From the IMG/VR virus record IMGVR_UViG_3300032214_000801, positions 1 through 64,000 of that record: DNA of 64,000 bases. The stretch is one strand, 5' to 3'. How positions within the stretch are numbered: position 1 is the stretch's first letter; every line of letters begins with the position of its first letter. This document shows positions 3,276-52,704 of this stretch, in pieces. This DNA is from a virus. Position numbers and translations under genes: made by a program. The notes below the pieces were generated by a model. It was not told where the DNA came from, searched no databases, and saw only the letters and a program-made list of their open reading frames with translations.

Positions 3276-3671
3276 TTAACTACTCTTAAAGATCTTCTCT
3301 AATATCTCTTTAGCATCATTGACATTAGAGATATACCCCATTCTACGATTTATTTTCGATTCATTATTCTTTTGTCTATAGCTGGAACGAATATAATTTT
3401 GATACATCATAATCATCTCTATATCTGAAGACTCACTCATTGTAAGCACATCCTCAAGATTAAGAATAAACATATCTTCAGTAGTGGTTTTTAGCCAAGG
3501 TTCTATCTTATATCCAACTACACTACCCACTCTTCCTTTTATTTCAGAAATTACAATTGGATTGGACACAATAAGCATTGTCCTATTATCTTCTTCTGAT
3601 GCTGCTACCTTTGCAAACAGTTCTTCACCTGTTTTTAATTTAAGAGTGCAATAAAAATCTTCTTCTATCAT
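3276..3671 (-). CDS. Conserved small protein downstream of uvsW, possibly Sm-like fold
   Basis: 131 residues. The ATG overlaps the uvsW stop (ATGA), so the two are translationally coupled. Not a family I can name. The first 75 residues alternate short beta strands: LKLKTGEELFAKV, then MLIVSNPIVIS, then MFILNLEDVLT. This loosely resembles an Sm/LSm-type barrel (strand-turn LKTGEE followed by hydrophobic strands). The rest is a helical basic tail ending in Lys. The Sm-like idea is a weak structural guess. Its place in the recombination operon suggests nucleic-acid metabolism. Confidence 0.7.
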   Translation of the reverse strand: MIEEDFYCTLKLKTGEELFAKVAASEEDNRTMLIVSNPIVISEIKGRVGSVVGYKIEPWLKTTTEDMFILNLEDVLTMSESSDIEMIMMYQNYIRSSYRQKNNESKINRRMGYISNVNDAKEILEKIFKSS

Positions 3672-5140
3672 TTCTTTAATTGAATAGTTATTATTTCATA
3701 ATTGAAGTTCTCTTCATTGTAAATTTTAATTCTCTCAATGAGATGATTTAAAGTATAATTTTTTCTCGAATTACTTGTGCAGTCATCAGCAATATCATAT
3801 AATACTGCCTTTGTTTTATTTTTACCCTTTCTTAAAACTCTTCCGATTGATTGGAGGTTTCTGACTCTTGATTTACTAGGGGAAGCAAAGATAACGTTAT
3901 GTAGATTTCTAATGTTAATACCAGTAGAAAAAGTACCGTAAGAAGCAACGATGATTGCATTATTTTCTCTCTCAGTAATTTCTCTTACAAGTTCTCTTTC
4001 TTCTGTATCTACACCACCATGTACAAAGAAGACTTTTCTATCTCCTTGCTTGCTATTATTTATTTGATCAAAAAGTATCGCTCCATGTGCCTCTACTCTG
4101 CTGAATAGGACAAGAGTATTTCCTTTTAGATCAAGTGTTAGATTGGTAATAAATTTATTTCTTTGTTCGTGAGAGATTAAGTACTGAATCTCATCCTCAT
4201 AAGTTTCAAACTTTTGTGGAGGATGTTTTAGAACTAGGCAGCGGATATCCAACTGGGAAAGATGTCCCTGTTTCATTAGTTCGTCAGTTCTTGTCACTTT
4301 GTATGATGGACCAAATAGTCCCTCCAAAACCCATTTGTGAGTTTGAGTGCCATCAAGAGTTCCTGTAAAACCAAATCTATGTTTTGCATGATGAAGTTTA
4401 GTCATAATCTCAATAAGAGATTTGCTCTTGAATAAATGAGCCTCATCGCCTATAATTACGCCATAGTCCTCAAAGAATGAACGCTCTAGTTTATATACGG
4501 ATTGCCAAGTTGTAATTGTAACTGGAAACTCATTTGTTTTTTCTCTTCCTGAATAGATACGGTGGCAATATGACTCAGCATCCCAACCATAATCCTGGAA
4601 ATCCTTGTACATCTGCTCTACAAGAGATGTCGTGGGAACAACTAAAAGAATTTTTTGCCCTTTATCCACATAATATCTTACGAGAGAATAAATCATCAAC
4701 GATTTGCCACTGGCAGTGGGGCTTATCAATAGTTTTCTATTATGCCTTAGAGCATCATATACTCCCTCTATTTGATACTGCCTCGGTTCATGAGCACAAA
4801 TAGATTTCATATAATCTTTGACACCCTCATATGAAATGAAGTCGTTAACTTCAAAGGGTTGTCCATAAAATTTATTATCTTCGAACTTATAACTATATCC
4901 GTACTGCTCGCAAAAATTGACAATCTTATCTAAGAGACCCACATAAATCTGCTTGGATCTCATGTCATATAAATGTATTTCTCCATTCCAATTTCTGCCC
5001 CTATACTGGGGCATGAACTTTGCGTTTGGAACCTCAAACTTGAAATGATCTCTAAGTTCGTATTCAATATGAGGTTCTGTTTTTATTTTAAGAAAAACTT
5101 CGTTAGACTTACTTATAATCAGATTTGTTGTATCAACCAT
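3668..5140 (-). CDS. uvsW: UvsW superfamily 2 helicase
   Basis: ATP-dependent helicase that unwinds R-loops and branched DNA and moves T4-like phages from origin-driven to recombination-driven replication. From the ATG at 5140 it has 490 residues. SF2 motifs are in order: Walker A SPTASGKS at 140-147, VVPTTSLVEQM (Ia), DEAH at 232-235, SAT-like FTGTLDG, and motif VI QSIGRVLRKG near the C-terminus. The N-terminal YRGRNWNGEIHL region matches the T4 UvsW substrate-binding domain. An alternative ATG at 5173 would add 11 residues but overlaps uvsY by 41 nt. I prefer 5140, which overlaps the uvsY stop by only 8 nt. Confidence 0.96.
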   Translation of the reverse strand: MVDTTNLIISKSNEVFLKIKTEPHIEYELRDHFKFEVPNAKFMPQYRGRNWNGEIHLYDMRSKQIYVGLLDKIVNFCEQYGYSYKFEDNKFYGQPFEVNDFISYEGVKDYMKSICAHEPRQYQIEGVYDALRHNRKLLISPTASGKSLMIYSLVRYYVDKGQKILLVVPTTSLVEQMYKDFQDYGWDAESYCHRIYSGREKTNEFPVTITTWQSVYKLERSFFEDYGVIIGDEAHLFKSKSLIEIMTKLHHAKHRFGFTGTLDGTQTHKWVLEGLFGPSYKVTRTDELMKQGHLSQLDIRCLVLKHPPQKFETYEDEIQYLISHEQRNKFITNLTLDLKGNTLVLFSRVEAHGAILFDQINNSKQGDRKVFFVHGGVDTEERELVREITERENNAIIVASYGTFSTGINIRNLHNVIFASPSKSRVRNLQSIGRVLRKGKNKTKAVLYDIADDCTSNSRKNYTLNHLIERIKIYNEENFNYEIITIQLKK

Positions 5141-5570
5141 ATCCTGCCTGGAATTTAATAAATTCAATGGCATTCTTAATTTGGTAAGTTCGATTTTGAA
5201 TTACCTTAAGAATACTCTCAATATAATTTAGGAGAGTTTCATAGTACTCAATTTTGAGTGCAACTTGAGATAATTTTTCGTCGGAATCTAAGTAACCTTG
5301 AAGAGTTTCTTTATCTCTTATTTTTTTGGGAAAGGGATTTTCTAAGTATACCTCTGGATCTGCCTTTCCAGTGAAATATTCATATCTTTCATGCCTAATT
5401 CTTTTTTTCTGCTGCTCTGCCCTCTTTTTTAATAAATTGATAGTATTATATAAATCAAAATATTTTGCATGAAGAACTGGGATGTTTAAAGATTCTGTAT
5501 GAAGATTATCTTGATCTATTTTAGAATCTTTCTCCCACATTTCTTGAATCGTGTCAAGATCAATACTCAT
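5133..5570 (-). CDS. uvsY: UvsY recombination mediator
   Basis: 145 residues (T4 UvsY has 137). It loads the UvsX recombinase onto gp32-covered single-stranded DNA. It shares the T4 pattern: an N-terminal helical region, a basic KKRIRHERYEYFTGK segment (T4 has KARLDYYSG), an SDEKL helix, and a C-terminal helix ending FQAGYG (T4 FEAGK). The ATG overlaps the stop of the upstream structural gene (ATGA). uvsX itself is not in the window. Confidence 0.92.
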   Translation of the reverse strand: MSIDLDTIQEMWEKDSKIDQDNLHTESLNIPVLHAKYFDLYNTINLLKKRAEQQKKRIRHERYEYFTGKADPEVYLENPFPKKIRDKETLQGYLDSDEKLSQVALKIEYYETLLNYIESILKVIQNRTYQIKNAIEFIKFQAGYG

Positions 5571-19062: not shown

Positions 19063-20060
19063 GAGATAGATCCACTAAATCCAAAGTCATCGCCTTCTTG
19101 TACCAATTGATTGTCGGCTTCTGTAATTGATTTTATTTCTGCCCCAGCAAGATGTGATGTAATCGTAGTATTATCCTTTCCGCGTTCAACAGTAAGAATA
19201 TTGCCATTCTTTGACTTTACAAATACTTCTTCCCCTTCAATATCCAAATAAGTCTTTGCTAAGATTGATCCCGAATCATTGACTTGAATTATAGTATCTG
19301 ATATTGTAATATCCTTAGAAAGGTTTGTTACAACAATTCCAGTATAATTCTGTATTGCTCTTGGTTCTGAGGAGTAAACAACTTCCCTAGTCGTTGAAGA
19401 TGATGGTTCTCCAGAAGAAATACTGACAGTAGATTTTTTGATAATATCTTTTGTTGCAGTAGAAACTGGACCAAACAAATATGTTTTTGCAGTAAATCTT
19501 AGAGTATAAACTAATGTTCTTCTTGTAGTAAAATCTCCTTCATAATCATCCATCATAGTTATATTTTCTAGGATTATCGGTATATCCCTCTTTTCATCAA
19601 TCTCATTAATCAATTCGATTGACATATTGTATGAAGGTTGAAAATATGGCAAAATTTGTTCAACTACTTGCAAAACATCATCATTCAATTTTGACATTAT
19701 TGACAATTCAAAATTAATATTATATGGAACAGGCATATATGCCTTTTTAGTTTGAGTTCCATCTGATGAAGATTTTGAAAGAAAAGTCTGAGTCGTAGTA
19801 ACTTTTCTTGTCGCATCATATTGTATACCAGTCATTTCAAATGACATTCTTGGAAGAGTCATTTGAACTGGCTTACTTAGATCTGGCGATTGCTCTAAGC
19901 GAGCCAAAAATTTCTGAGTGGGTCCATATGCCAAAGGTACTTTTATTACGCTTACAACTTCACCGGAATTATTTGTATGCTTAATGGATATATTGTTGAA
20001 TAAAGATCCAAATCCAATAATAGTTCTTCTAAAAATTTCGTGATAAAAATACTCAAACAT
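19059..20060 (-). CDS. gp15: Tail sheath stabiliser and completion protein gp15, with a C-terminal add-on module
   Basis: 333 residues (T4 gp15 has 272). Hexameric cap that ends the tail and joins it to the neck. Residues 1-210 match gp15: YHEIFRRTIIGFGSLFNNI, VPLAYGPTQKFLAR, LPRMSFEMTGIQYD. Residues about 248-312 form an extra module: TIIQVNDSG, then YLDIEGEEVFVKS, then LTVERGKDNTT and a conserved His303. The same pattern occurs in the DUF4815 and 4049-aa proteins. The module is not in T4 gp15 and probably projects from the neck region. Confidence 0.94.
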   Translation of the reverse strand: MFEYFYHEIFRRTIIGFGSLFNNISIKHTNNSGEVVSVIKVPLAYGPTQKFLARLEQSPDLSKPVQMTLPRMSFEMTGIQYDATRKVTTTQTFLSKSSSDGTQTKKAYMPVPYNINFELSIMSKLNDDVLQVVEQILPYFQPSYNMSIELINEIDEKRDIPIILENITMMDDYEGDFTTRRTLVYTLRFTAKTYLFGPVSTATKDIIKKSTVSISSGEPSSSTTREVVYSSEPRAIQNYTGIVVTNLSKDITISDTIIQVNDSGSILAKTYLDIEGEEVFVKSKNGNILTVERGKDNTTITSHLAGAEIKSITEADNQLVQEGDDFGFSGSIS

Positions 20061-34017: not shown

Positions 34018-34025
34018 TATTTATG
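34018..34025 (-). promoter_or_regulatory. Late promoter variant CATAAATA upstream of the 449-aa gene
   Basis: Minus strand, 32 nt before the start, overlapping the stop of the 4049-aa gene. One mismatch to TATAAATA. Confidence 0.6.
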
Positions 34026-37000
34026 TCTTGTAGTTTCTATATTTGAGTGGGTTTGTTCTGGTTACAAGAGCAGAAGTCTTAATTCCAGTAATTCCATTCT
34101 GATTATAGAAATTAAATGGCTCAATTGGTACAAATGATGAAACTGGAATTCTACCCCAACTAAAGTTTCCGATTTCATTAATTATTTCAGCATCAAATGT
34201 CATTCTTGTGGAATCAAATGTTATTGATGACGAATCAAATGTTCTAGATCTGAAATCATAATTATTAAACGTGTTTACACTAACAACAACTTCTTTGGTG
34301 TAAATATTGCCAAATCCAATAATATTCGTTAAAGCAGTTGATGAAGAAACTACTTGATACACATTGTCAATGAAAGTTGTTCCTACTCCAACTACAGAAC
34401 CATCAGATCTTAGTGACTTAATTGAGGTATTAAAACCTAAATTAGAATCCGATAATACGAAATAATCACCTTGAGAGATTTGGCTAATTGTAATTGCAGC
34501 TCCAACAATTGCATCACTTCTTAGTACAGAATCGGGTGGAATATAGAAGTTAAATTTAAGAGCTGTCGATGCAATTCCAACTACAGAAGTACTTGCAATG
34601 CCAACTATCATTCCAAAATCTCCTTGATAAGAGATATTTGAAAGTTTCTTAATATTAATTTCTGGAGATTCTATTAGAACTACAGGTGGATTTGTAAATG
34701 TATATCCAGTTCCTGCATTTGAGATTGTGATAGTTGTAACTATACCAGAACTTATTGAAGAAGTTGCAGTAGCAGTTGTTCCTAATCCAACAATAGTTTC
34801 CGATCCATTTACATATGTTGTAGCAGGATTTGAAACACCAAATCCTAAAGGATTTCCAATTTTAACTACAGGAGAATTAACGTATCCATATCCACCATTT
34901 GAGATAACGATTGCACTAATTGTTCCTGCAGCAGATACAACTGCTGTAGCAGCAGCAGAAACTTTCTCTTCTTGAGAATACATTGTGACATTATTTTGGA
35001 AATTCAATGAAATCTTATTCTCATTATATGGATCGAAGAAAGATTTAACGCTTTCTATGTAAATGGTTGTAGTTCCAGCACTTACTGTTTGAATAACATT
35101 AGTTGCAGGATAAATCAAAGGTTCATATAAATCTCTATCCTTTGCAATTTCCTTTTCATTAACAATCTTATCTTCAGTTTGTCTGCACCAAGTTACTGGT
35201 CTTGTTAGGGTTTCATCTGTAGTATTTCCAGGTCCAAAATAAACGTTTGTGTCAACTGTATTGATAGAGGTGACATCTATAACAGAGCGATAGTCTTCCT
35301 GTAAGAAACTTGATTGTCCCAAATAAGAATCGTATCCAATAGTCAGTTCATCTCCAATCTTAACACTTTCAATAATATCTTTGTCTATAACGTCAATGGA
35401 TCCAGTTCCTTTATAGAATAGGAGCTTCATTGTGTATCCAGATTTAGGAGGTTCTGTAAATGTTATTACACTACCACCATCAAATTCATAAGCTTCACCT
35501 GGAATTTGTAATATGTTGTTGACAAACAATAGTAGAGTTGACTTAATATCAATTTTAGAACCCTTAGATGCTCTGATTGATAATATTTCACCATTTGACT
35601 TAATTTGGAATTTTCTTCTTATTCCATCAAACAAATCAGCAAAATCATCCAATACTTGCAATTCTCCAATAGACCACCCAGAGAATTTGTCTCTATAAGT
35701 TGAATCTATAGTTAATGAGAATTCTTTAAAGTTTGCACTTGAAGTTGTTGGTATTCCTGTCGTTCCACCGACTAAAACAGTTAGAACTTCTCCTTGTCCG
35801 TACCCGTATCCAAGATTATTCAGAGTAAAATCAATTACACTAGATCCTTGTCCAACTACTATATCTACGGTTGCGGATGATCCGTTTCCAGATGATATTG
35901 AAGAATAGACTAGAGGAACGTTTGAATATGATAATGGAGAATCAAAAATTACATGTGGTGGATTTGTTGAGGTATATCCAGTTCCTGGATTTGTAACTGC
36001 AACACTTACTACATGTCCATTGGTTATGTTTGCAGTTCCAACGTAGAATATGTTAGGAGTTTCTAAAGATGAAGTTGTGACACCAACTCTTACTGTTTGA
36101 ATTCCTGCCCTGTACCCAGATCCAGTATTTCCAACACTAATTGATTGAATGGTTCCTGCAATAGAAACAATCGCTGTTCCTCCAGCAGATACTAGAGGCT
36201 GGTATCCAAATCCAGAAGTTGATCCAACAGATATGATGATGCCACCTATGGGAACGGAACCAACATTTGGATCGTATGATACTGAAGATGCAGTTCCTGT
36301 AAATGTAATAGAAGTGATACCACTATTTTCAGATAGTGTATAATCATATGATAATCCAGGACCCTGGAAAATATCATTAACCAGAACGATTGCATTTTCT
36401 GTTGCAATTCCAGTTATATTTGATTTATTTGATCTAATACTGAATAATTTCTTCTCACTATCAAATTCCGAAGAAATATCATCAAAAATATAATTGTTGT
36501 AGTATGCCTCAAGTGATGTACCTGGATAAGCGGATCTTAAGAAGGTTCTTCCATGGAATTTGGATCTTGTTGTAATTCCAACATAATCTCTTTGATCTGG
36601 AGGATTTGTTGGTGCGCCTATAGGAATATTTCCATAAGGTGCCTCAACAAAATTGAGTTTATTGCCAACAATATTGTAAGTTCCAGTAACCTTTGTGATA
36701 GGTGATCCTGTAGAGTGTCCAACAACATCAGATCCCATCCAAGGTCTCTGAACAAGAACTGCATTGGTACTTCCAATACCAACACCTCTAATTCTCATTA
36801 TTTCATCATCAATTTTAATTAGATCACCCCCAAAGAAAGAAGTAATTCCACTAAAATAAAGAAGATCGTCTGAAATAAATGCATTCTTAGAAAGGCTTGA
36901 AGTTATAGCCGTTCCAACAATTGGAGATTGAATAATATTGTCAAGGCATATAATTACTTTTGAATTTTGTTTTTTGGAAGTGAAGAAATGCGTTCCGATT

Positions 37001-40000
37001 CCAGAAACCAGATCAAAGGTATTTGGATCAACGTTTAAAGAATCCTCTGCAGTTGCTGCGAGTTTAAGTTGAGTTTCATTTAATTTTACAACAAAAACCG
37101 AGGATGGTAATTTATTTGTGATTCCGATTCCAGTAATTGTAGTAGTACCAATACCTATAGCTAGAGATGTACCTGCACCAGGATTTGTATAAACCAATTC
37201 TTCTCCGGTAACAAAGAAGTGGTTTGGTAGATTTATAACATTTGCGGCATAGTCAATGTTCGTTTGAGTATCAAAACTCTTTTCAAAAATTGGTATTGAT
37301 CTATATGTGAGATCAAATTCCCTCTTAACGTCTGTTATTGAGGATCTATATAATCCATATCTTGTTTCTATAGAAGCATTTCCTAAGTTAATGAGAGACT
37401 CAAGTGGACTTGTTTCAACAAATTTGAGGGCATTTGCAAATATCCTTACTTCAACATCCGTATTTGGTACTGGAGTAAATGTTAATTGTGCATCAGTTCC
37501 AGAAAGATTTACTCCAAAGGTTCCAAGCCCAGAATTAGTTTGTAAATCGGCATACTCTACATAATATGATTCAGAATCATTAATTATACTTGAAATTTCA
37601 GATGAATACACATCTCCAGTATTTTTATCTGTTACCTGTGTGATATAATATGCCCCACCATATAGATTTGAAAATGTTGCTACAACATTTTCTGTTGGTG
37701 TTGCGGAAGATGCAATAGAAATATAATTTGACTGCAATCTTGCATATTGTAGATCATATGTTCCAATTCCTGATGTATTGGTATTGCCTATTGCAATGTT
37801 CAAACTATTTGAAGTTACTCCAATTCCAGAATATGGAATAAAGTCAATATTAAAATTAGATCCAGAAATATATGGATAGAATGTACCTATTGATCCACTA
37901 GAATAGAAGCTTAAACTATTGTTGTTTAATCCACCATACTCCAAGAACTCAATCTGAGATCCTTTTCTTATAGCATTATATTCCGTAAAATAGTGTTCTC
38001 CATTATCGCCAATAACATTAACAATTCCTTTAACTGAAGTAAATGATGATGCAATACTTACAACATTGCAAGGAGATCCTACAGATGCCGAGTTTGATCC
38101 AGTAACAATTTTAACTACATCACCAAAATCTCTTGATCCTATACCAGATACTGCATCGGTTAAATTGAAAAATAGGCACGTAACGTCAAAATCGTCATAC
38201 TCGTAATTCGTTGGATAGAAATTAATAACACCATCAGTTCCATCAACAACAAAATCAAATGTTCCCATATCATAAGATGATTCCACTCTTGCATATTGGT
38301 TCATATACGAGAAGTACTCATCCTTTAAGAGATCCAACATTATAAGTTGTCTTTGATTTACATATCTCTTATCTCTAATTAAAGCTATAATCTTCTTAGA
38401 AGTAACACCCTGAACACTGAATCTTGCAACCTCACCAAATCTTGTGACTCTAGGATTACTATTAAATTGATCACTAATATCATCAATCAAGAGAACTCTG
38501 TTTCCAACAGATTCAGAATAATCGGTTAGTACTCTGTTTACAAATATAATTTCATCAGAAATAATTTTACCGTCAACATTTAGTACATTTTCTCTAACAA
38601 TGTCATAGTCAGAAACACAATTTATATCAACAACAGAGTCTATATTTACAATAACCTCCACACCTGGAGAATTTGATGGAATCTCAACAACCATAGATTC
38701 TTGATCATAATATGGTAAAGTAGATTCCATTTGCAAATCTGCAAACTTTTTAAATCCTGCTGTGTGATTTAATGTGCTTACAACATCTTCCCATGTATTA
38801 AAGTCTATTTTAGATTTCAATGAATATGAGAAGGTTTGATAATACTCATTATCAGGTATTCTTTGAAGAATATCATTAAGGAATCCAGTCTCATTTTCCC
38901 AACCATTTCTAATCTTCGAATAATAATTTAATCCATATTGCGAATTAAATTCTTCAATAGAATTGATTTGGGCAAGAGATCCAGATATTAATCCTTTAAC
39001 AATTGTTCCAGCATAAACTTTATCAACAGTACTAACCTTAAGAGTTCCTGTTTTATTATCCCAATTTTGAACAACACCTGTCATAGATGTTGAAGCTACT
39101 GAAACTATTGGTTCTCCATTATAAAAATCTGTGGGTTTAACACTGACAGAGAATTGTGGAAGATTTTTCTCCGCAATGATTTTTCCTGATGAGTTTGCTG
39201 GATCAAAAGTTCCAGGAATTTCTCCTTCCTTTAAAAATCCATCTAAACTAAATGTTACGATTCCAATTCCACCTCTATTCTCAGCTACTGACAATATCTT
39301 GAAGAATTCATATCCATAATTTGAGGAATTATATCCTATACCAGTAGATCCAACTCCAACGCTAACATTTTCAATTAAAACTTTATCGTTAGCTGAGAAT
39401 GGGAATGACTGCTCGGTACTAAATCCAACAGAAAGTGTTACTGCTGCAGTTTTGTTTGTAGAGTTATATCTTATTGTGGAAATCCCCACTCCATTTGAAT
39501 TCTGAATTGGAATTATTTTTGGAGTTGTGTTGTTTATTCCATTTGTATTCTTGAGTATGGTAACTTTACCATCGCCAAGATTATAACGAAGATCGACTTC
39601 TGGAACAACTTTATTAGTTTTTCCATCCAAAAGAATTAATTTTGGCGATACCGTATATCCTCTACCAAAGGAGGTTACTCCAATGTTTTCAATAGTTGCA
39701 AACGATTCAATAGTGCAAATTTGAGGTAATTTTGTTGTTGGACTTAAAGTTGAATCTGATGGAAAATCAAATCCAATATTTTCTATTGTTGTTGTTTTGA
39801 GATTACCGATAGACTTACTATAAGCCTTTAATACTGCTCCAGTTCCATTTTCTGTTGTTAAGACAGTTGATATTCCTGGCAATGAATAATAATTATTTCC
39901 ACCACTCTTAATTAATAATCCACTAATTGCTCCAGATGCATATGTTGATTCAGTTTCATACTTAATTGTGGAAGTAGAAGAAATATATGAAGAAGATTCT

Positions 40001-43000
40001 GGAATTACTGATAAGTTATATGTAAACGATGAATTTGATTGAGTTGTAATTACATGCTTTCCATTATACAAACTTGGAATTAAATTGATCTCATTGTTTG
40101 ATGGTACAAAATTGTCAATTAGTATTTCTTTTTTCTCAACAGTAGCTAGAAATTCATTGACTAAATCTAGTTTGTAGTATAGTTTTTCTGGTAGATATTT
40201 GTTAGCAGTAAGTACAACTCTAGCATCGGTTCCTATTCCGACAGTTCCATATCTTTTAATTTCAAACTGTCTATCTGTTTGAGTAGATTCAAATTTCTTG
40301 GTAAAATTAGAATCGGTATAGAAATTAAGTTCAAAGATTGGGAATCTTTGAGATTGATTGGAAACTGACAGTGAACTATCTGAAAGATCAAAAGTAACCG
40401 TAGAATCTCTATATAACTCCAATCTCGGATTTACAGCAGATAGAGTTCCATCAAATCCCGATGTAATCTTAACTGGGGTTGGCAGTAAACTTACTGATTC
40501 CTCATATGAAGTTGCTAACTTAAATTTATCAGTATTGACAAAAATTACATAATAAATTCCGTTATTAGATAATCCATAACTTGTTCCTACACAAGTATGA
40601 ATAATCTTTTGTCCATTATAAAATCCATGATTATCAATTGTAATTTCGGATGTTTGAGTATTAATTCCAGAAGCAACAAAATTCTTTGGATTTACTAATA
40701 ATCTTCTATTATAATCATTATATCTTATAGCAAATGATGTTGTTATCGCTGGATTTACATCAATGAAAACTTCATCGTTGTTCTTTAGTCCATGTGTTTG
40801 TGCTGTAGAAACAGTTACAAGATTTCTTTGGATTGATCCACTTACAACATTTGGATATAGTGTCTTAAAGCTATGATATACACCTGTTCCAATTCCAGTT
40901 AGATATAGGGTTGAATCTGTTCTAGTTGTTAGAGCTATTCCAGAGAAACTTCCATTTGTACCAATACCCAATCTTACTGTAGATATTCCTACTAGATTTT
41001 CGTCAATTTTTGAAATATAAAGAATTGATTTGTCTTCTAGTAATCTAGAATTGACAGTATTGGTGGAAATTCCAATAGAACTACCACCATTTACACTATA
41101 AACAACAGCATCTCCAGTATTTAAGTTGTGATTTGGAATATAGATTGATTTTAATGGAATGTACTGTTGAGTTTTTGCTGCACCTGCATTTGATATGAAA
41201 ACAGTAGTGCCAACACCAACAATACCTAAACCAAGAGATTCTGATGGATTAAAATAAAATTCTCTGTTAAAGGTATAATTAAATGTTGTATTGTATCCTA
41301 CGTTAATAGAAAGTTTTCTTTGAATTTGATATGCTGAACTTGTGTTAGTATGAGCAGAAGAAATGTTATTAAATGCTCTTAGAACTCTAATTCTAGAAGA
41401 TCTCTTATCAATGTTTAAAACTTTTACTTGCTCACTACCAATACCGATAATATCATTTTCGCGAATGGTTGGGTAATTTAGATTTCCAGAAATATTGAAA
41501 TACGTTACTATTCCAGTAACTCCTGCTGTTCCAACACCAGAATTTAAGATGTATCTTTCTCCAGTAGATATTCCTACAGAATAAGATCCTCTTAGAAGAG
41601 AAGATGTTGTACTTAATCCAGAAACTGTAATAATATCCTTATTTGAGTAATTATGTGGAGTTGGGGAAAATACTACAAAATTGCCGTTCCCATCATATGG
41701 ATAAAATTCTACCCCAGAAACTACGCTTGAAGCAACACTTACAGAATTTACATCCTTTCCACCTATTCTAGAAACTCTTACATCAGCACCAGCTCCTCCA
41801 GTATTTGATTCTAAGAATATTAGTTTGTCTCCAATCTTATAATTATTGCCTCCAGTAACAATCCCAACCTTCTCAATAATACCTGGAGAAGCATACTTGA
41901 TGCGGGATTTTTGATTTAAGTTAGTTGGTATGTTAATATAATCATATTCACTTGTGTTACTTGTTAAATTGTAAAAATGAGTATTTCTTATCCAATTTGT
42001 ATTATTCAAATCAATATCATTTTGATTTGAATTTTTTCTAAAGTTAATTGGATTTGGTTTTGCTTGATAATTTTTACCAATTAAATATGGGAATACTGGC
42101 TTTTTATATCCATTAAAATTGCCAATAGATTCTGCACTGGAATTTAAAGTTGAAAAATAAGCGTAAGTCCCATTTGGATATTCTGGTGTTACGCAATATC
42201 TTCCATTGTTTTCATCAAGAGTTGCTTCATCGCCAGTTTTTTCATAAACATAATCTTCGATAAAGAATTCTTCTGGGAAGATGTTTGTGGAAGGTCTTCC
42301 TGCAGACAATTTAATTTTGTAACCAGACTTCATCTGGGTTACTGATCCACCAGTCTTTAGAGAATATCCATATGGACCGTAGATAGGATATCCATCGTAT
42401 GACCATCCAATGATTGGTGAGTGATCAATAGAATTGATTTCAGTATTACCAAATTTCTTAAGATCTGGGTTGCTGTAAAGAACTCTTCCAGATTGATCTG
42501 AAGAATATGTTATTTCTCTAAGTTTTCTTGGAGCATATAGATGAACATATTGCAATCCATAATTTTCATTCAATCCAGCAACAGTAACTCCATCATCTCC
42601 AGAAAGTCTTGATTGATACTTTCTGAATAGGTTTGCAGTCCAAGATTTGATGCTTGACTTAAATTCTGCTCCTAGTCCAGGAACAATGACGTTAATAAAT
42701 GTTGTCCCCCTTCCATACCCGATTCCACCTTCAACAACTTTAATTGATTTGATTTGTCCATTCTCAATGATCGGTGTTAATACTGCTCCTCTACCTTCAC
42801 CAATAATCTGTAAGTTTGGTGGGGCATAATAATAACTACCTGCAACATTAACTAGAACTTCTATTATTTGTCCTTCTGCAGAAATAATCGGTGTTAATTG
42901 TGCATTTGCGCCATTTAAAAGATTAAACTCTGGATCTTTATAGAAATTGAGAACTTCTTCGGATCCATATCTAGAACCGCTATTGGTTAAATGTATTGAA

Positions 43001-46000
43001 GTGATTTCTCCTCTAAAAATTGGTTGAACTTTAGATTTAAAATCATCCTGAGGGAGAGATGAAACTCCAACAGTTCCAATTACTTCTACAGAAATGTCTG
43101 GATAGTTGAATACATGAGTTCCAACTCCAACAGAACTTAGGTTTACAAATTGTCCTGTTTTATAGTAATAATCAAGGTTCCCTGTGCTTAATCCAACTAA
43201 CGACAATCTAAAAGAATCATTGTCAACTTTAGTAACATAATATTCTGTATTTGCAGTAAGTCCAGAAATTGGAGATCCATCGACAGTATACTTTACGATT
43301 TCTCCAGAGTTATATCCATGATTTGAGATCTTAACAATATTGGAAGCAGTATTGATTCCTGCAGTAGCAGATGTTCTCTTTTTATTCTCATATCCATATC
43401 CAGAATCTGTTACAATAATGGAATCAATTACTGTCTTATTATTGAAAGATTCTAGAGAATGATTTCCTACACTGTAACCCAACAGAGAAATGGTATTAAT
43501 TCCCAATATTGCATCATTTTCATTTAAGTGCAGCTTAACAGTATATGCGTCTATAACGTTAACGTTATATCTTGCATCAGTGGTTAATCCTGAAATAGAT
43601 GCTTGTCCATCTGTTCTATAGACTACAATTTCACCATTTCTAAATTTGTGGTATGTGGTAAATCCAATTGTAGAAATATCTGTTCCAACACCAATCAAAT
43701 TTGCATTAGCATTTGAGTTGAATGTTACCTTATGCTCTATTGCTTTTAGTCTTGCTTCTGCTTTTGCCCCAACTCCGTTTCCACCAGTAATTCTAATGAT
43801 AGGAGTATCGACATAATCAAATCCACGATCTATTAATCTAATTTCCTTTAAATTACCAAGAACGGAACAATAGCCAGTAGCTCCAGTTCCCACAGCATCT
43901 GAAATGCTTAGAATTGGTGGAGTTATGATATCGTAATTTTGTCCGCCAGATACTACATTTACCTTTTCAATTGGACCATAATAAAGAGTGTCTGAACCTT
44001 TATAATTTAAAATTTCAACGCCATTAATTAATATTCCAGTTTTACCTGGATCAGTTTCATATACTGTTCCATCACTGAAAGGTGGAGCAATTTCTCTTAA
44101 AAGATTCTGTGTAGTTAAAGTCTTCCCTTTTGTCTTATATGGTTCTATTCTGTTATTTGTAACACTAACAACCGAATCAGTTGTTAGATAAATGCCATTA
44201 AAAATATTTGATCTGCTTCTTGCAAATTTGACATTATTTTCATCTACTCTTTTTACAAAATAAAGTCCTTCTTCAAATTTTGATCCCAGAGAACTAACAA
44301 CAGATGTTACTTCAGATTCTACTCCATTTTCATCTGGAACTATGGAAATTTGTTTTTCTGGGGTATAATAGACTGCATCTCCACTATAGAATCCATGATC
44401 AACACTTGGGGAGATATTAAAGGTGTCTCCATCAAAGGTGCCAGAAAATGTTACTGAATTGTCAGTTACATTGAGAGACTGATTGCTATAATAAGGAATA
44501 GATGACGAAGCTACTAATAGTTTTTCTTCATCTCTGTAAACATTTTGAACATTAGTATTCAGATAGGAAAGATCTGAGAAGAAAGGAGAGTTAACCTTTA
44601 GTGGTTTTCTTGTCGCAGTATAGTTTGTAGTTAACGACAGAGATCCCTGTCCTTTAACTAAGATGACATATTCTCCCAAGATATCAACTACTGAAGATGT
44701 TGATTCTTCTCCGAAACTTGATCTAAATGTAATCTTATCTCCAGTTTTAAAGATATGAGGATCCGAGAAAGTAATCGAGTAGCTATTATCGGAAGTATCA
44801 ACTACTTCGATTGACTTTACATGATAAGTTGGGCAAATATTTAATGACCAATTATTTGAAAATCTATCTCTAAAATTGCCACCTAAGGTTTCAATTAAAA
44901 TATGATCATCTTTATTGAGTCCATAGGTATTACTCGAAATATTAAAGTTATCAATTACTGAAGTAATTCTAACTGTAATTACTTCATTGGGGTTATTGAT
45001 AGAATAACCATACGCATAAGTATTAATTCCAACAGGAGTTTTGTCGGTAATTAATTGTTCAATAGTGCTGCAGCCAAAAAATTGACTCAGAGACTTTGAA
45101 GTATATTTGACAATACCAACAGTACCATCTTCATAAGCAACTGACAATTCTCCACTATTGGGGAACCTTACAGTAGAATCTACGTCAATTGTAGTTGAAC
45201 CAGGATATATGTTACCAATTATTTTGGTGTATGGATGAACTGTAAAGTCTCCATAAATTGATCCACTAACACTAATATCTCTATTGTAGTTTGCATCAAA
45301 GCTTAGTTTGTAATAATTTGCTGTCGATAGTCCAGTTACAATCTTTTCAACTTTTCCTACAGGAGCATAAGCCTTTTGAATATCTCCGTATTGATTCTGG
45401 AAAAGGGTTTCATTGACTAGATCATAGGGATTTCCAGATATAGATTCTACAACTACATCTTTGGTAAGTTGATATCTGGCATCCGATGGACGAATTAGTT
45501 TTTCTTTTGGCTTGATTACATCAACTTCTTCATTATAAAGTCCTTTGAAAAGAATTTTAAAGGAACTATCTGTTCCTCTGCTGCCATAAAAATCTTTTAG
45601 CTGCTTTATAAATGTAGCTTGATTTAGGGAAGAATAAAAATCTCTTCCCTCAAAACCAGGAGCTATTTGCTTTTTAAACTTTTTAAGGAATTCTTTTACG
45701 AAAAGAACGCTTAAATTTTCTACTACTGTTCCTGAAATATGATCTTCTGAGTTTGAATCGGAAAATACAAGCTCCTCTGGTTTGTTTGGACTTGTAAATG
45801 AAGTGATTCCACTAAAGCCTCTGATACAACCAGAAAAAGCAGTAGATGATTTGGAAGTATATGTGATGAGTTCATCGTCAATTCTAAGGAGTCCATATGC
45901 CTCTGGAAACCCATCAGTATTGTCAACTGGTATCTCAGTGTCAGAAAAGGTAATATCAGAGGTTAGAGACGCACTACTTGAATATTGAGTAAGAGTATCT

Positions 46001-46170
46001 AATTTATTATAGTCACTTAGGTTCTCAAGAATATCAATTGATCCACCATAATATTCTTGAGATTTGTAATATTCAGAAAGAAATTCTAATGCTAATGGGG
46101 ATTCTTCCCCAACGTATGCTGGTAGCTGACTCTTTACGACGATATTAAAGGGTACTCTTTTCTCTGACAT
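34021..46170 (-). CDS. Giant baseplate-associated protein (4049 aa) with a YHYH domain, in the gp7 position
   Basis: The largest gene of the window, 12.15 kb, directly after gp6 where T4 has gene 7 (1032 aa). The first 240 residues (PLALEFLSEYYKSQEYYGGS, then DFYGSRGTDSSFKILFKGLY) look like a conserved wedge-type N-terminus. Residues about 1200-1350 form a YHYH domain: KKFGNTEINS, then IIGWSYDGYPIYGPYGYS, then an acidic turn and NGTYAYF. The remainder is an array of short beta modules: DDELITYTSKS with CIRGFSG near 85-110, many GxGY-x-x-PP repeats, and H-G-F/L-x-x-G-D strand motifs about every 90 residues. The C-terminus ends KYRNYKT. It is probably a gp7-like wedge core with a huge decorated extension. 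The role of the YHYH domain is unknown. Confidence 0.88.
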   Translation of the reverse strand: MSEKRVPFNIVVKSQLPAYVGEESPLALEFLSEYYKSQEYYGGSIDILENLSDYNKLDTLTQYSSSASLTSDITFSDTEIPVDNTDGFPEAYGLLRIDDELITYTSKSSTAFSGCIRGFSGITSFTSPNKPEELVFSDSNSEDHISGTVVENLSVLFVKEFLKKFKKQIAPGFEGRDFYSSLNQATFIKQLKDFYGSRGTDSSFKILFKGLYNEEVDVIKPKEKLIRPSDARYQLTKDVVVESISGNPYDLVNETLFQNQYGDIQKAYAPVGKVEKIVTGLSTANYYKLSFDANYNRDISVSGSIYGDFTVHPYTKIIGNIYPGSTTIDVDSTVRFPNSGELSVAYEDGTVGIVKYTSKSLSQFFGCSTIEQLITDKTPVGINTYAYGYSINNPNEVITVRITSVIDNFNISSNTYGLNKDDHILIETLGGNFRDRFSNNWSLNICPTYHVKSIEVVDTSDNSYSITFSDPHIFKTGDKITFRSSFGEESTSSVVDILGEYVILVKGQGSLSLTTNYTATRKPLKVNSPFFSDLSYLNTNVQNVYRDEEKLLVASSSIPYYSNQSLNVTDNSVTFSGTFDGDTFNISPSVDHGFYSGDAVYYTPEKQISIVPDENGVESEVTSVVSSLGSKFEEGLYFVKRVDENNVKFARSRSNIFNGIYLTTDSVVSVTNNRIEPYKTKGKTLTTQNLLREIAPPFSDGTVYETDPGKTGILINGVEILNYKGSDTLYYGPIEKVNVVSGGQNYDIITPPILSISDAVGTGATGYCSVLGNLKEIRLIDRGFDYVDTPIIRITGGNGVGAKAEARLKAIEHKVTFNSNANANLIGVGTDISTIGFTTYHKFRNGEIVVYRTDGQASISGLTTDARYNVNVIDAYTVKLHLNENDAILGINTISLLGYSVGNHSLESFNNKTVIDSIIVTDSGYGYENKKRTSATAGINTASNIVKISNHGYNSGEIVKYTVDGSPISGLTANTEYYVTKVDNDSFRLSLVGLSTGNLDYYYKTGQFVNLSSVGVGTHVFNYPDISVEVIGTVGVSSLPQDDFKSKVQPIFRGEITSIHLTNSGSRYGSEEVLNFYKDPEFNLLNGANAQLTPIISAEGQIIEVLVNVAGSYYYAPPNLQIIGEGRGAVLTPIIENGQIKSIKVVEGGIGYGRGTTFINVIVPGLGAEFKSSIKSWTANLFRKYQSRLSGDDGVTVAGLNENYGLQYVHLYAPRKLREITYSSDQSGRVLYSNPDLKKFGNTEINSIDHSPIIGWSYDGYPIYGPYGYSLKTGGSVTQMKSGYKIKLSAGRPSTNIFPEEFFIEDYVYEKTGDEATLDENNGRYCVTPEYPNGTYAYFSTLNSSAESIGNFNGYKKPVFPYLIGKNYQAKPNPINFRKNSNQNDIDLNNTNWIRNTHFYNLTSNTSEYDYINIPTNLNQKSRIKYASPGIIEKVGIVTGGNNYKIGDKLIFLESNTGGAGADVRVSRIGGKDVNSVSVASSVVSGVEFYPYDGNGNFVVFSPTPHNYSNKDIITVSGLSTTSSLLRGSYSVGISTGERYILNSGVGTAGVTGIVTYFNISGNLNYPTIRENDIIGIGSEQVKVLNIDKRSSRIRVLRAFNNISSAHTNTSSAYQIQRKLSINVGYNTTFNYTFNREFYFNPSESLGLGIVGVGTTVFISNAGAAKTQQYIPLKSIYIPNHNLNTGDAVVYSVNGGSSIGISTNTVNSRLLEDKSILYISKIDENLVGISTVRLGIGTNGSFSGIALTTRTDSTLYLTGIGTGVYHSFKTLYPNVVSGSIQRNLVTVSTAQTHGLKNNDEVFIDVNPAITTSFAIRYNDYNRRLLVNPKNFVASGINTQTSEITIDNHGFYNGQKIIHTCVGTSYGLSNNGIYYVIFVNTDKFKLATSYEESVSLLPTPVKITSGFDGTLSAVNPRLELYRDSTVTFDLSDSSLSVSNQSQRFPIFELNFYTDSNFTKKFESTQTDRQFEIKRYGTVGIGTDARVVLTANKYLPEKLYYKLDLVNEFLATVEKKEILIDNFVPSNNEINLIPSLYNGKHVITTQSNSSFTYNLSVIPESSSYISSTSTIKYETESTYASGAISGLLIKSGGNNYYSLPGISTVLTTENGTGAVLKAYSKSIGNLKTTTIENIGFDFPSDSTLSPTTKLPQICTIESFATIENIGVTSFGRGYTVSPKLILLDGKTNKVVPEVDLRYNLGDGKVTILKNTNGINNTTPKIIPIQNSNGVGISTIRYNSTNKTAAVTLSVGFSTEQSFPFSANDKVLIENVSVGVGSTGIGYNSSNYGYEFFKILSVAENRGGIGIVTFSLDGFLKEGEIPGTFDPANSSGKIIAEKNLPQFSVSVKPTDFYNGEPIVSVASTSMTGVVQNWDNKTGTLKVSTVDKVYAGTIVKGLISGSLAQINSIEEFNSQYGLNYYSKIRNGWENETGFLNDILQRIPDNEYYQTFSYSLKSKIDFNTWEDVVSTLNHTAGFKKFADLQMESTLPYYDQESMVVEIPSNSPGVEVIVNIDSVVDINCVSDYDIVRENVLNVDGKIISDEIIFVNRVLTDYSESVGNRVLLIDDISDQFNSNPRVTRFGEVARFSVQGVTSKKIIALIRDKRYVNQRQLIMLDLLKDEYFSYMNQYARVESSYDMGTFDFVVDGTDGVINFYPTNYEYDDFDVTCLFFNLTDAVSGIGSRDFGDVVKIVTGSNSASVGSPCNVVSIASSFTSVKGIVNVIGDNGEHYFTEYNAIRKGSQIEFLEYGGLNNNSLSFYSSGSIGTFYPYISGSNFNIDFIPYSGIGVTSNSLNIAIGNTNTSGIGTYDLQYARLQSNYISIASSATPTENVVATFSNLYGGAYYITQVTDKNTGDVYSSEISSIINDSESYYVEYADLQTNSGLGTFGVNLSGTDAQLTFTPVPNTDVEVRIFANALKFVETSPLESLINLGNASIETRYGLYRSSITDVKREFDLTYRSIPIFEKSFDTQTNIDYAANVINLPNHFFVTGEELVYTNPGAGTSLAIGIGTTTITGIGITNKLPSSVFVVKLNETQLKLAATAEDSLNVDPNTFDLVSGIGTHFFTSKKQNSKVIICLDNIIQSPIVGTAITSSLSKNAFISDDLLYFSGITSFFGGDLIKIDDEIMRIRGVGIGSTNAVLVQRPWMGSDVVGHSTGSPITKVTGTYNIVGNKLNFVEAPYGNIPIGAPTNPPDQRDYVGITTRSKFHGRTFLRSAYPGTSLEAYYNNYIFDDISSEFDSEKKLFSIRSNKSNITGIATENAIVLVNDIFQGPGLSYDYTLSENSGITSITFTGTASSVSYDPNVGSVPIGGIIISVGSTSGFGYQPLVSAGGTAIVSIAGTIQSISVGNTGSGYRAGIQTVRVGVTTSSLETPNIFYVGTANITNGHVVSVAVTNPGTGYTSTNPPHVIFDSPLSYSNVPLVYSSISSGNGSSATVDIVVGQGSSVIDFTLNNLGYGYGQGEVLTVLVGGTTGIPTTSSANFKEFSLTIDSTYRDKFSGWSIGELQVLDDFADLFDGIRRKFQIKSNGEILSIRASKGSKIDIKSTLLLFVNNILQIPGEAYEFDGGSVITFTEPPKSGYTMKLLFYKGTGSIDVIDKDIIESVKIGDELTIGYDSYLGQSSFLQEDYRSVIDVTSINTVDTNVYFGPGNTTDETLTRPVTWCRQTEDKIVNEKEIAKDRDLYEPLIYPATNVIQTVSAGTTTIYIESVKSFFDPYNENKISLNFQNNVTMYSQEEKVSAAATAVVSAAGTISAIVISNGGYGYVNSPVVKIGNPLGFGVSNPATTYVNGSETIVGLGTTATATSSISSGIVTTITISNAGTGYTFTNPPVVLIESPEINIKKLSNISYQGDFGMIVGIASTSVVGIASTALKFNFYIPPDSVLRSDAIVGAAITISQISQGDYFVLSDSNLGFNTSIKSLRSDGSVVGVGTTFIDNVYQVVSSSTALTNIIGFGNIYTKEVVVSVNTFNNYDFRSRTFDSSSITFDSTRMTFDAEIINEIGNFSWGRIPVSSFVPIEPFNFYNQNGITGIKTSALVTRTNPLKYRNYKT

Positions 46171-50865: not shown

Positions 50866-51218
50866 TTCATTTTGTTACTTCCTTATATATCACAACTTAT
50901 TTTTTTCTTTTTTTCAGATACTCCTTTTTTTGTGCCTCCTAGTACCTCCGGAAAAATTTTATGAGATTGATATAGAGATCGCGTTTTGTCACCTCTGTAG
51001 GTTAGGGACTTATCGATTTTTATAAACGCAACGCCCGCTTATAACAATAACGCCCCAATCGCAAACACTGCCTATTTACTATACTTAACGAATACGATTA
51101 CAAGGTATAAAGAATAACTGTCAAATCACTGTGTAATACTAATAAACAACACATTTAGTTTATGAAATACTTAAGGACGGGGAGAAAGAATAACTCACTC
51201 CCCGCACAGTAAGCTACA
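50866..51218 (-). promoter_or_regulatory. 353-nt non-coding control region
   Basis: No open frame of note. Going leftward it holds: a hairpin 15 nt after the 55-aa gene stop (51178-51204, stem CGGGGAG/CTCCCCG, 13-nt loop, no T run); a promoter TTGACA (51119-51124), 16-nt spacer, TGTAAT (51097-51102); TATAA-type boxes near 51020-51045; and at 50900-50960 poly-A/T tracts around two GGAGG words not followed by a start codon. It separates the small-gene cluster from the glycosyltransferase unit. Confidence 0.6.
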
Positions 51219-51454: not shown

Positions 51455-51772
51455 TCAGTTAAGGCGCATTCCAGAGAAGAAAGGAATCGTGCCGAATTGA
51501 TTAGAACTAAAGAACCACTGTCCTGCTTTCTGAAACACACGCTCACCATCAATTCCGTGAGCGAAAAGAATAGCGTTCAGGCGCGACTTTGTGGTGTTTG
51601 TTTGATGCTTACCGTCGAACAGTTGTACAAAGTCCTCACCGATAGTTGCGATCTGATTACCATGCAGAAACACACGGGAGATCTTACCTTCGGAGACAAC
51701 TTCAGTGTTGCCACTCTTCCAATTGAGAGCTTCGTTGATAGCTTCGTTCATCAGGGATTCGATCTTGCGCAT
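51455..51772 (-). CDS. Conserved small protein with SGNTEV/LHGN motifs (105 aa)
   Basis: It begins with a helical MRKIESLMNEAINEALNW part, then SGNTEVVSEGKISRVFLHGNQIA, a strand, and TTKSRLNAILFAHGIDGERVFQK leading to WFFSSNQ. Recurrent in T4-like cyanophages and also seen in some cyanobacteria, as far as I recall. Likely a small alpha/beta protein; function unknown. It has the best-formed upstream hairpin-promoter module. The long plus-strand frame opposite it is a shadow. Confidence 0.8.
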   Translation of the reverse strand: MRKIESLMNEAINEALNWKSGNTEVVSEGKISRVFLHGNQIATIGEDFVQLFDGKHQTNTTKSRLNAILFAHGIDGERVFQKAGQWFFSSNQFGTIPFFSGMRLN

Positions 51773-52085: not shown

Positions 52086-52112
52086 AAGTTTGCTCCGTTG
52101 TGTTGTGTGGAT

Positions 52113-52141
52113 ACTCTAGGATACTGTGGTGTGAATGTCAA
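52113..52141 (-). promoter_or_regulatory. Sigma70-type promoter for the 57-aa gene
   Basis: Minus strand TTGACA (52136-52141), 17-nt spacer, TAGAGT (52113-52118), ending 28 nt before the start codon. It faces left, back to back with the plus-strand promoter at 52215-52243. Confidence 0.7.
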
Positions 52142-52214
52142 GTTCTTGGTGGGTATTTATGCGGGGTTGGGGTGGTTTTTTGCGGGATCTGTGAGGATTT
52201 TGTGACTCTGGGGG

Positions 52215-52243
52215 TTGACAATTTGCGTTCCTTAGTGTATGCT
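52215..52243 (+). promoter_or_regulatory. Plus-strand sigma70 promoter
   Basis: TTGACA (52215-52220), 17-nt spacer, TATGCT (52238-52243). A perfect -35 and 5 of 6 in the -10. It is the only convincing plus-strand promoter I found, and no plus-strand gene follows it. The transcript would start near 52250, at the first iteron. Confidence 0.75.
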
Positions 52244-52257
52244 CGCTAAGATAACAA

Positions 52258-52372
52258 GACTCTGGTGCATTTAAAAGACTCTGGTGCATTTAAAAGACTC
52301 TGGCACATTTAAAAGACTCTCGAAGGTTTATAAGGTATTAAACACATTTAAAAGACTCTGGTACATTTAAAA
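52258..52372. repeat. 19-bp iteron array
   Basis: Unit GACTCTGGTGCATTTAAAA. Copies start at 52258 and 52277 (identical), 52296 (two changes: GGCACA), and 52354 (one change: GGTACA). A half copy at 52315 (GACTCT) is followed by a divergent stretch. A further GACATTAAACACC at 52373 pairs with an ATTAAACAC inside the divergent unit. Spacing is exactly 19 bp for the first three. Confidence 0.9.
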
Positions 52373-52494
52373 GACATTAAACACCTTATTGAGAATAACA
52401 ATCAATAAGAGAAACAAATCACTAATATATGTTTTTAATTACATTTATTAATCGATTTAATATCATTTTATCGTTATATTGTATTAAAAACAAT

Positions 52495-52519
52495 AAAAAA
52501 GAGAGGTTTTATCCTCTCT
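52495..52519 (-). terminator. Intrinsic terminator after the 57-aa gene at 52531
   Basis: Minus-strand hairpin AGAGAGG-ATAAAA-CCTCTCT (7-bp stem) running into six Ts. It stops leftward transcription from the small genes before the origin-like region. Confidence 0.88.
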
Positions 52520-52530
52520 CTTAGTATTCA

Positions 52531-52704
52531 TCAGAACGTTGGAACTTTCACATCATCTGAATACTTATCAGCATATAATCCTGCTAATTGTACTGATGAC
52601 ATTGGCACTGGTGTTTCATTATACTTGTATAAACGGTGATTGTCATAAGTGAACCATTCATACTCTTTTGATTGTAGATTTGATGCAATGCAGTATGTTG
52701 TCAT
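52531..52704 (-). CDS. Small conserved protein (57 aa)
   Basis: ATG at 52704, stop TGA at 52531. It begins MTTYCIASNLQSKEYEWFTY and continues DNHRLYKYNETPVPMS, ending KVPTF. Rich in Tyr; probably a small beta-rich protein. The start overlaps the stop of the next gene upstream (ATGA). Followed by the terminator at 52495-52519. Function unknown. Confidence 0.75.
   Translation of the reverse strand: MTTYCIASNLQSKEYEWFTYDNHRLYKYNETPVPMSSVQLAGLYADKYSDDVKVPTF

Follow-up and report, generated by a model that had tools for sequence, protein, structure and literature searches.

In T4-like cyanophages (Kyanoviridae), a non-coding gap upstream of the baseplate gene 25 is, judged by its conservation, a real cis element. 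We consider it, with a probability of about 70%, to be a start site of cyanophage genome replication, probably the main early one. Replication origins are built from parts in the order seen here: a promoter, in this case antisense, then phased repeats, next initiator boxes at helical spacing, and finally a zone rich in A/T. An origin had already been proposed here in the initial annotation; that proposal is supported in part, the promoter and the direct-repeat zone being conserved in relatives and the terminator it included turning out to have the opposite orientation.

Position and layout of the element

The window, that is, the whole stretch of DNA that was analysed, covers 64 kb out of a 70,269-base virus record. 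Compared with phage records at the DNA level, it matched two Synechococcus phages and one marine virus best. It encodes portal and major head proteins, the baseplate proteins gp6 and gp25, UvsW and an SbcD-like nuclease, with almost all genes on the minus strand. Adjoining gp6, a single minus-strand reading frame of 4,049 aa (34021-46170) probably encodes a baseplate or fibre protein.

The element occupies positions 52,142-52,530 and is flanked by two small minus-strand ORFs. The non-coding gap described initially is real, while its bounds needed correction: the ORF-free span runs from 52086 to 52530 when an overlapping chance ORF (52116-52289) is discounted. From left to right, it begins with a promoter on the minus strand, followed by a G-rich block, the plus-strand promoter, iterons, a box module formed by a dyad, and an A/T-rich zone. 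The box module was missing from the initial list of parts and proved to be the most informative of them. The features are as follows:

52113..52141, minus strand: divergent sigma-70-type promoter TTGACA-N17-TAGAGT, serving the next leftward gene cluster
52142..52214, plus strand: G/T-rich, A/C-poor block separating both promoters (by composition; the G-run ahead of the -35 is kept in the core alignment)
52215..52243, plus strand: element promoter TTGACA-N17-TATGCT, antisense to all flanking genes
52241..52259, plus strand: most conserved block, directly after the -10, GCTCGCTAAGATAACAAGA (core alignment)
52258..52372, plus strand: iterons GACTCTGGYRCATTTAAAA in 19-bp phase (repeat finding, shuffles)
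52385..52409, no strand assigned: box module, dyad CTTATTGAGAATAACAATCAATAAG; other relatives have DnaA boxes at the same position
52396..52505, no strand assigned: A/T-rich zone, candidate DNA unwinding element (composition, duplex stability)
52497..52522, minus strand: terminator facing the right-hand operon (T-run on the minus strand)
3668..5173, minus strand: UvsW helicase, distant from the element (PDB 2oca, E=3.9e-87)

Conservation among T4-like cyanophages

Relatives were collected through three neighbouring proteins (80, 80 and 2 loci), together with isolates and a marine virus record. Profile searches were needed because plain DNA similarity with the window gap, or with the gap of locus L151, yielded chance A/T-rich matches or none in named phages. 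A profile comprising the promoter and the first iteron was built from 45 seeds (a pattern search gave 47, of which two were off target and removed); at E<=1e-4 it matched 95 of the 174 loci. Conservation in relatives had been named initially as a check on the proposed origin, and it was borne out: in Kyanoviridae, the promoter, the direct-repeat zone and the A/T-rich zone are found again at the corresponding position, with a conserved core of approximately GGGG-N-TTGACA...TTATA.TATGCTCGCTAAGATCACAAGACCTNGANACATTTA.

When eleven complete isolate genomes were scanned with this profile, eight matches were obtained at E<=1, one per genome and all at the position of the element. Another model, R1, was run against 25 whole records, 11 of them taken from IMG/VR and picked because a relative locus was already in the set; 20 records matched at E<=1, the best match being a single place in each. 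Syn9 (52,646-52,682) and P-SSM2 (65,924-65,963), both excluded from the building of R1, match it upstream of gene 25 on the minus strand, and an equal layout was judged by eye to be present in S-PM2, S-CREM1, S-RSM4 and P-SSM4. All isolates examined (13/13) thus have the element, nine being identified by profile (E<=0.01) and four by eye; it lies upstream of gene 25 in antisense orientation. Its neighbours are less constant: the adjacent 57-aa gene was found at E<=1e-10 in only 35 of 70 elements, so the element outlives its neighbours. Host genomes were rejected as its source, R1 having no match in 300 host-family genomes, which under the strict filters used is a weak negative.

An antisense promoter with no conserved gene behind it

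Both promoters of the initial annotation are present. The plus-strand promoter (TTGACA at 52215-52220, N17, TATGCT at 52238-52243) agrees with the consensus at 10 of 12 positions, and the back-to-back promoter, TTGACA-N17-TAGAGT, lies on the minus strand at 52141-52113. The G-rich block between them was also confirmed (52143-52214; 43% G, 8% C), and its G-minus-C excess is equalled by 0.02% of 72-bp windows. A divergent promoter 20-170 bp upstream occurs in 48 of 70 elements compared with 41 of 1400 control pieces, and every flanking gene that was scored runs antisense to the element promoter (61/61, 53/53 and 48/48). In the Syn9 element, the block GCTCGCTAAGATAACAAGA is kept although the promoter hexamers are poor.

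No conserved gene was found downstream of the plus promoter in 64 elements. A dominant plus-strand ORF lies behind it in ten of these, seven of which are endonuclease-like by sequence; Pfam confirmed five of the seven, L055 had no Pfam match and L161 was unscanned. The five confirmed genes stand immediately after the promoter and on the same strand as the promoter:

L013:3499-4341, L066:1-918, L029:2071-2877 and L139:2132-3145, all minus strand: GIY-YIG endonuclease genes (Pfam)
L093:2433-2960, minus strand: HNH endonuclease gene (Pfam)

The placement of endonuclease ORFs behind the promoter is behaviour typical of mobile genes at conserved sites.

A structured RNA was considered as the product of the promoter and rejected, the results of Rfam, single-strand folding and shuffling being unremarkable. 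Rfam returned no match to the window, folding of the window transcript gave a z of -1.33, with 19 of 200 shuffles equally good, and with a simpler shuffle z averaged -0.66 across 26 elements, the window itself scoring +1.2. For an R-loop, which the initial comparison with T4 implies, the energetics gave no support: the difference between hybrid and duplex energy had no clear bias favouring the plus transcript.

Iterons, A/T-rich zone and terminator

AAGACTCTGGYRCATTTAA is present four times, against an expectation of 0.10, and none of 100 shuffles reached four; TRF reported a period of 19 with 6.3 copies. The exact 19-bp phase claimed initially holds for the GACTCT starts at 52258, 52277, 52296 and 52315 and breaks at the fifth start (52354), which comes 39 on and is one base out of phase. 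Direct repeats (at least 17 of 20) were detected in 33 of 66 elements compared with 6 of 371 control pieces, and by that test the other 33 elements have no clear direct repeats. A search of viral contigs with the exact iteron pattern gave no match, which marks this sequence as phage-specific.

The A/T-rich zone is real as well, although its description as nearly pure A/T was overstated, A/T amounting to 83% over 52396-52505. The 100 bp from 52400 have the highest A/T content of the 64 kb (85%), and the mean duplex stability of 66 elements is lowest 150-230 bp past the -35, directly behind the boxes. Genome-wide, the best 60 bp by A/T content rank in the top 0.1% only in the isolates S-SZBM1, S-SKS1 and Bellamy; in the remaining seven they fall in the top 0.35-4.4%, which is rich and unexceptional for the genome.

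The hairpin at 52497-52522 had been described initially as a terminator closing the gap. Its T-run is on the minus strand, so it would stop transcripts arriving from the right-hand genes instead of the plus transcript. A hairpin in this operon-facing sense is found in 19 of 66 relatives compared with 7 of 600 control pieces, and in the opposite sense in 0/66; likewise, no T-run terminator for the plus transcript was found in any of the 66 elements. This arrangement suggests that outside transcription is kept off the element while its own promoter reads in.

Two box types that replace each other

For the survey of boxes, near-copies were removed, leaving 70 non-redundant elements, 66 of them full-length. 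In the stretch from the promoter to the A/T zone of these 66, the host-type DnaA box TTWTCCACA alone occurs in 25, the ATTCTCAATAA-type box TTGAGAA/TTCTCAA alone in 24 (the window included), both in one and neither in 16 (Fisher p=1.6e-6, uncorrected for kinship).

TTTTCCACA is given as the cyanobacterial DnaA box in the available parts of two published papers (PMC4674748; PMC3480399). We counted 62 DnaA boxes in 26 of the 66 elements, compared with a mean of 0.8 and a maximum of 3 in shuffles, and their density was 2.85/kb in the elements vs 0.026/kb in the rest of the loci. TTTTCCACA itself occurred 56 times, the best of 400 permuted 9-mers reaching 4, and an unbiased count of 8-mers placed pieces of the DnaA box at the top and pieces of the TTCTCAATAA box second. 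Elements with DnaA boxes carry one to four of them. Of 36 start-to-start spacings, 31 measure 11-14 or 20-23 bp, corresponding to one or two helical turns. Boxes lie ~100-175 bp past the -35, and in 43 of 50 elements the A/T peak comes after them. Elsewhere in the isolates DnaA boxes are few, and clustered ones are found mostly at the element. They are absent from 40 of the 66 elements, among them the window's own. None of 14 phages scanned has a DnaA gene, and DnaA is encoded in 33 of 41 host-family genomes (genome completeness not given). In the S-PM2 record (NC_006820), tRNA-Asn and tRNA-Leu are annotated at 19,177-19,333, overlapping its DnaA-box cluster (19,231-19,264); the tRNA coordinates of this record look displaced, since other tRNAs in it overlap coding genes.

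By sequence comparison, the two box types replace each other between relatives. Trees of two neighbouring genes require at least 10 and 9 changes between the DnaA and TTGAGAA classes, and on one neighbour-gene tree the window (TTGAGAA class) is paired with L089 (DnaA class); these trees are poorly resolved and may differ from the history of the element itself.

In the window, the dyad CTTATTGAGAATAACAATCAATAAG contains TTATTGAGAAT at 52386-52396, which is the reverse complement of ATTCTCAATAA. This consensus core is identical to the 11-base core at the centre of the Anabaena FurA site, AAATAAATTCTCAATAAAT, as reported in the available part of PMC4788461. Across the full 19 bases, the match to the FurA site averages 13.4, only slightly more than the 12.7 of shuffled sequences, and a score of at least 15 is reached by 4 of 24 elements compared with 3.8% of shuffles. 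For the class with neither box, the 19-base E. coli Fur consensus served as the scoring reference, and 7 of 16 elements match it at 14 or more of the 19 bases vs 2.5% of shuffles. A Fur-family protein is encoded in 37 of 41 host-family genomes. The 13-mer TTGATTCTCAATA has 28 matches in 101 host-family genomes, many within ORFs, compared with seven for the reversed pattern; no iron gene was found among ten neighbours of these host matches, and no recognisable regulon emerged. These comparisons point weakly to a Fur-family regulator as a possible reader of the ATTCTCAATAA box, in which only the 11-base core clearly matches. A dyad of the form GGATAGTATCC/GGATACTATCC/GGGTAGTATCC is present in some elements without DnaA boxes (P-SSM2 65,698-66,123; P-SSM4 50,955-51,182; L135; Bellamy).

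A candidate origin and its alternatives

If the element is an origin, host RNA polymerase would start early at its promoter and read in the direction of the A/T-rich zone. There, a host protein bound to the boxes, DnaA in one class, may help to open the zone or halt the polymerase, possibly assisted by a protein on the iterons. The duplex would be left open, with an RNA 3' end available to prime the phage replisome (gp59/41/61 and the polymerase gp43). At late times the sigma-70 promoter would no longer be active; remaining hybrids would be removed by UvsW, and replication would become recombination-dependent. In T4, UvsW unwinds origin R-loops, and the initial statement that the window encodes this helicase is correct. 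Besides UvsW, another helicase assigned to its PHROG (phrog_16), without a PDB sequence match, is encoded at G000 64604-65824 (L266:4604-5824, minus strand), and a helicase gene stands on that side of the element also in Syn9, P-SSM4 and S-CREM1.

No initiator gene was found beside the element, its four small neighbours being without a Pfam match. A 105-aa phrog_554 protein (window 51455-51772, minus strand), which occurs in 388 phage records and has an AlphaFold pLDDT of 93.6, was considered as an initiator and dropped: it has no PDB match at E<=0.001 and lies 4.3 kb from the element in S-SKS1. Raw, detrended and third-codon GC skew gave no consistent switch at the element, the detrended maximum fell within 20 kb of it in only 4 of 10 isolates, and the sign is opposite to that of a simple bidirectional origin; all these measures are confounded by gene strand and gene class.

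A more specific proposal, a modular origin with an exchangeable switch operated by a host regulator, either DnaA or an iron-type regulator of the Fur family, is tentative and in our view rather doubtful. Once bound, the regulator could stop antisense transcription just ahead of the A/T zone and in this way set the primer end.

The boxes might instead be a decoy that titrates host DnaA or the regulator reading ATTCTCAATAA, with the promoter and the A/T zone incidental; host replication would be stopped or host genes derepressed as phage genomes multiply. Both box types do resemble host-protein sites in phages without DnaA, and the box modules swap freely, but an element holds only one to four DnaA boxes, and a decoy would need neither helical spacing nor a promoter, iterons, a shielding terminator or a fixed orientation, which makes it unlikely. 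The same low odds apply to a regulatory island, in which the boxes would be operators of the divergent promoters and the gene clusters would be controlled through them by DnaA or a Fur-like repressor. DnaA and Fur are transcription factors in other systems, and the divergent promoter recurs in 48/70 elements; however, the boxes lie ~100-175 bp past the -35, away from the promoters, behind the plus promoter there is no conserved gene (a dominant ORF in 10/64), and the element persists where its 57-aa neighbour, present in only 35/70, does not.

A conserved promoter with no gene after it would also suit a non-coding RNA, trans-acting or antisense. We regard this as very unlikely: there is no Rfam match, folding is little better than that of shuffles, a T-run terminator is found in 0/66 elements, and the conserved parts are boxes of the DNA-protein type that occur in either orientation. 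Least probable of all is a packaging start, a recombination hot spot or another non-replicative cis site, which would agree with a single conserved non-coding place and with the homing endonucleases that adjoin it in some phages, yet would leave the promoter, the DnaA boxes and the A/T zone unexplained.

Relation to known origins and significance

In the available part of PMC3016281, T4 oriE is described as combining an early-mode, MotA-independent promoter with evenly spaced direct repeats that are kept in relatives, and oriF and oriG as combining a promoter with an A/T-rich unwinding element. The comparison with oriE made in the initial annotation fits, since the element likewise joins iterons to a sigma-70-type consensus promoter, early-mode by its sequence. 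Unlike oriE, it has repeats of 19 nt instead of 12 nt, present in 33/66 elements, and adds a marked A/T zone as well as boxes of either the host DnaA or the ATTCTCAATAA type. With oriF (ori(uvsY)) and oriG it shares an encoded UvsW and a zone that is A/T-rich by sequence. T4 oriF also lies directly upstream of gene 25, whereas the promoter of the element points away from that gene. The MotA box is TGCTTTA, and in contrast to oriF and oriG the element has no MotA-type promoter, its -35 being TTGACA with no TGCTTTA nearby. T4 uses several origins, and we know of no involvement of DnaA in its replication.

Elements of the DnaA-box class resemble cyanobacterial oriC in having helically spaced TTTTCCACA boxes beside an A/T-rich zone; this box cluster, by which a cyanobacterial oriC is recognised, is missing from the window copy and present in 26/66 relatives. 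Unlike oriC, the element is phage-borne, lies behind a promoter and has no dnaN known beside it. Iteron plasmid origins of the R6K gamma and RK2 type consist of phased iterons, DnaA boxes and an A/T-rich zone, all of which recur here, but no Rep gene was identified adjoining the element (four neighbours without a Pfam match). The element would thus be a variant of T4-type promoter/iteron origins, with exchangeable boxes for host proteins as the new part.

According to the available part of a review (PMC2984593), a single theta origin is predicted for Syn9, and the origin is unknown for other cyanophages. We found no paper on the element in the open-access literature on cyanophage origins and DnaA, and the available part of the S-PM2d transcription paper (PMC5931967) contains nothing on it.

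For the abundant T4-like marine cyanophages, the element offers a sharply defined and conserved candidate site of replication start in every genome examined. Our data suggest that phages of the T4 kind may have recruited the host initiator DnaA, and the exchangeable box modules would then represent natural experiments. If the proposal of a host-regulator switch is true, the onset of phage replication would be tied to the replication state of the host or to iron.
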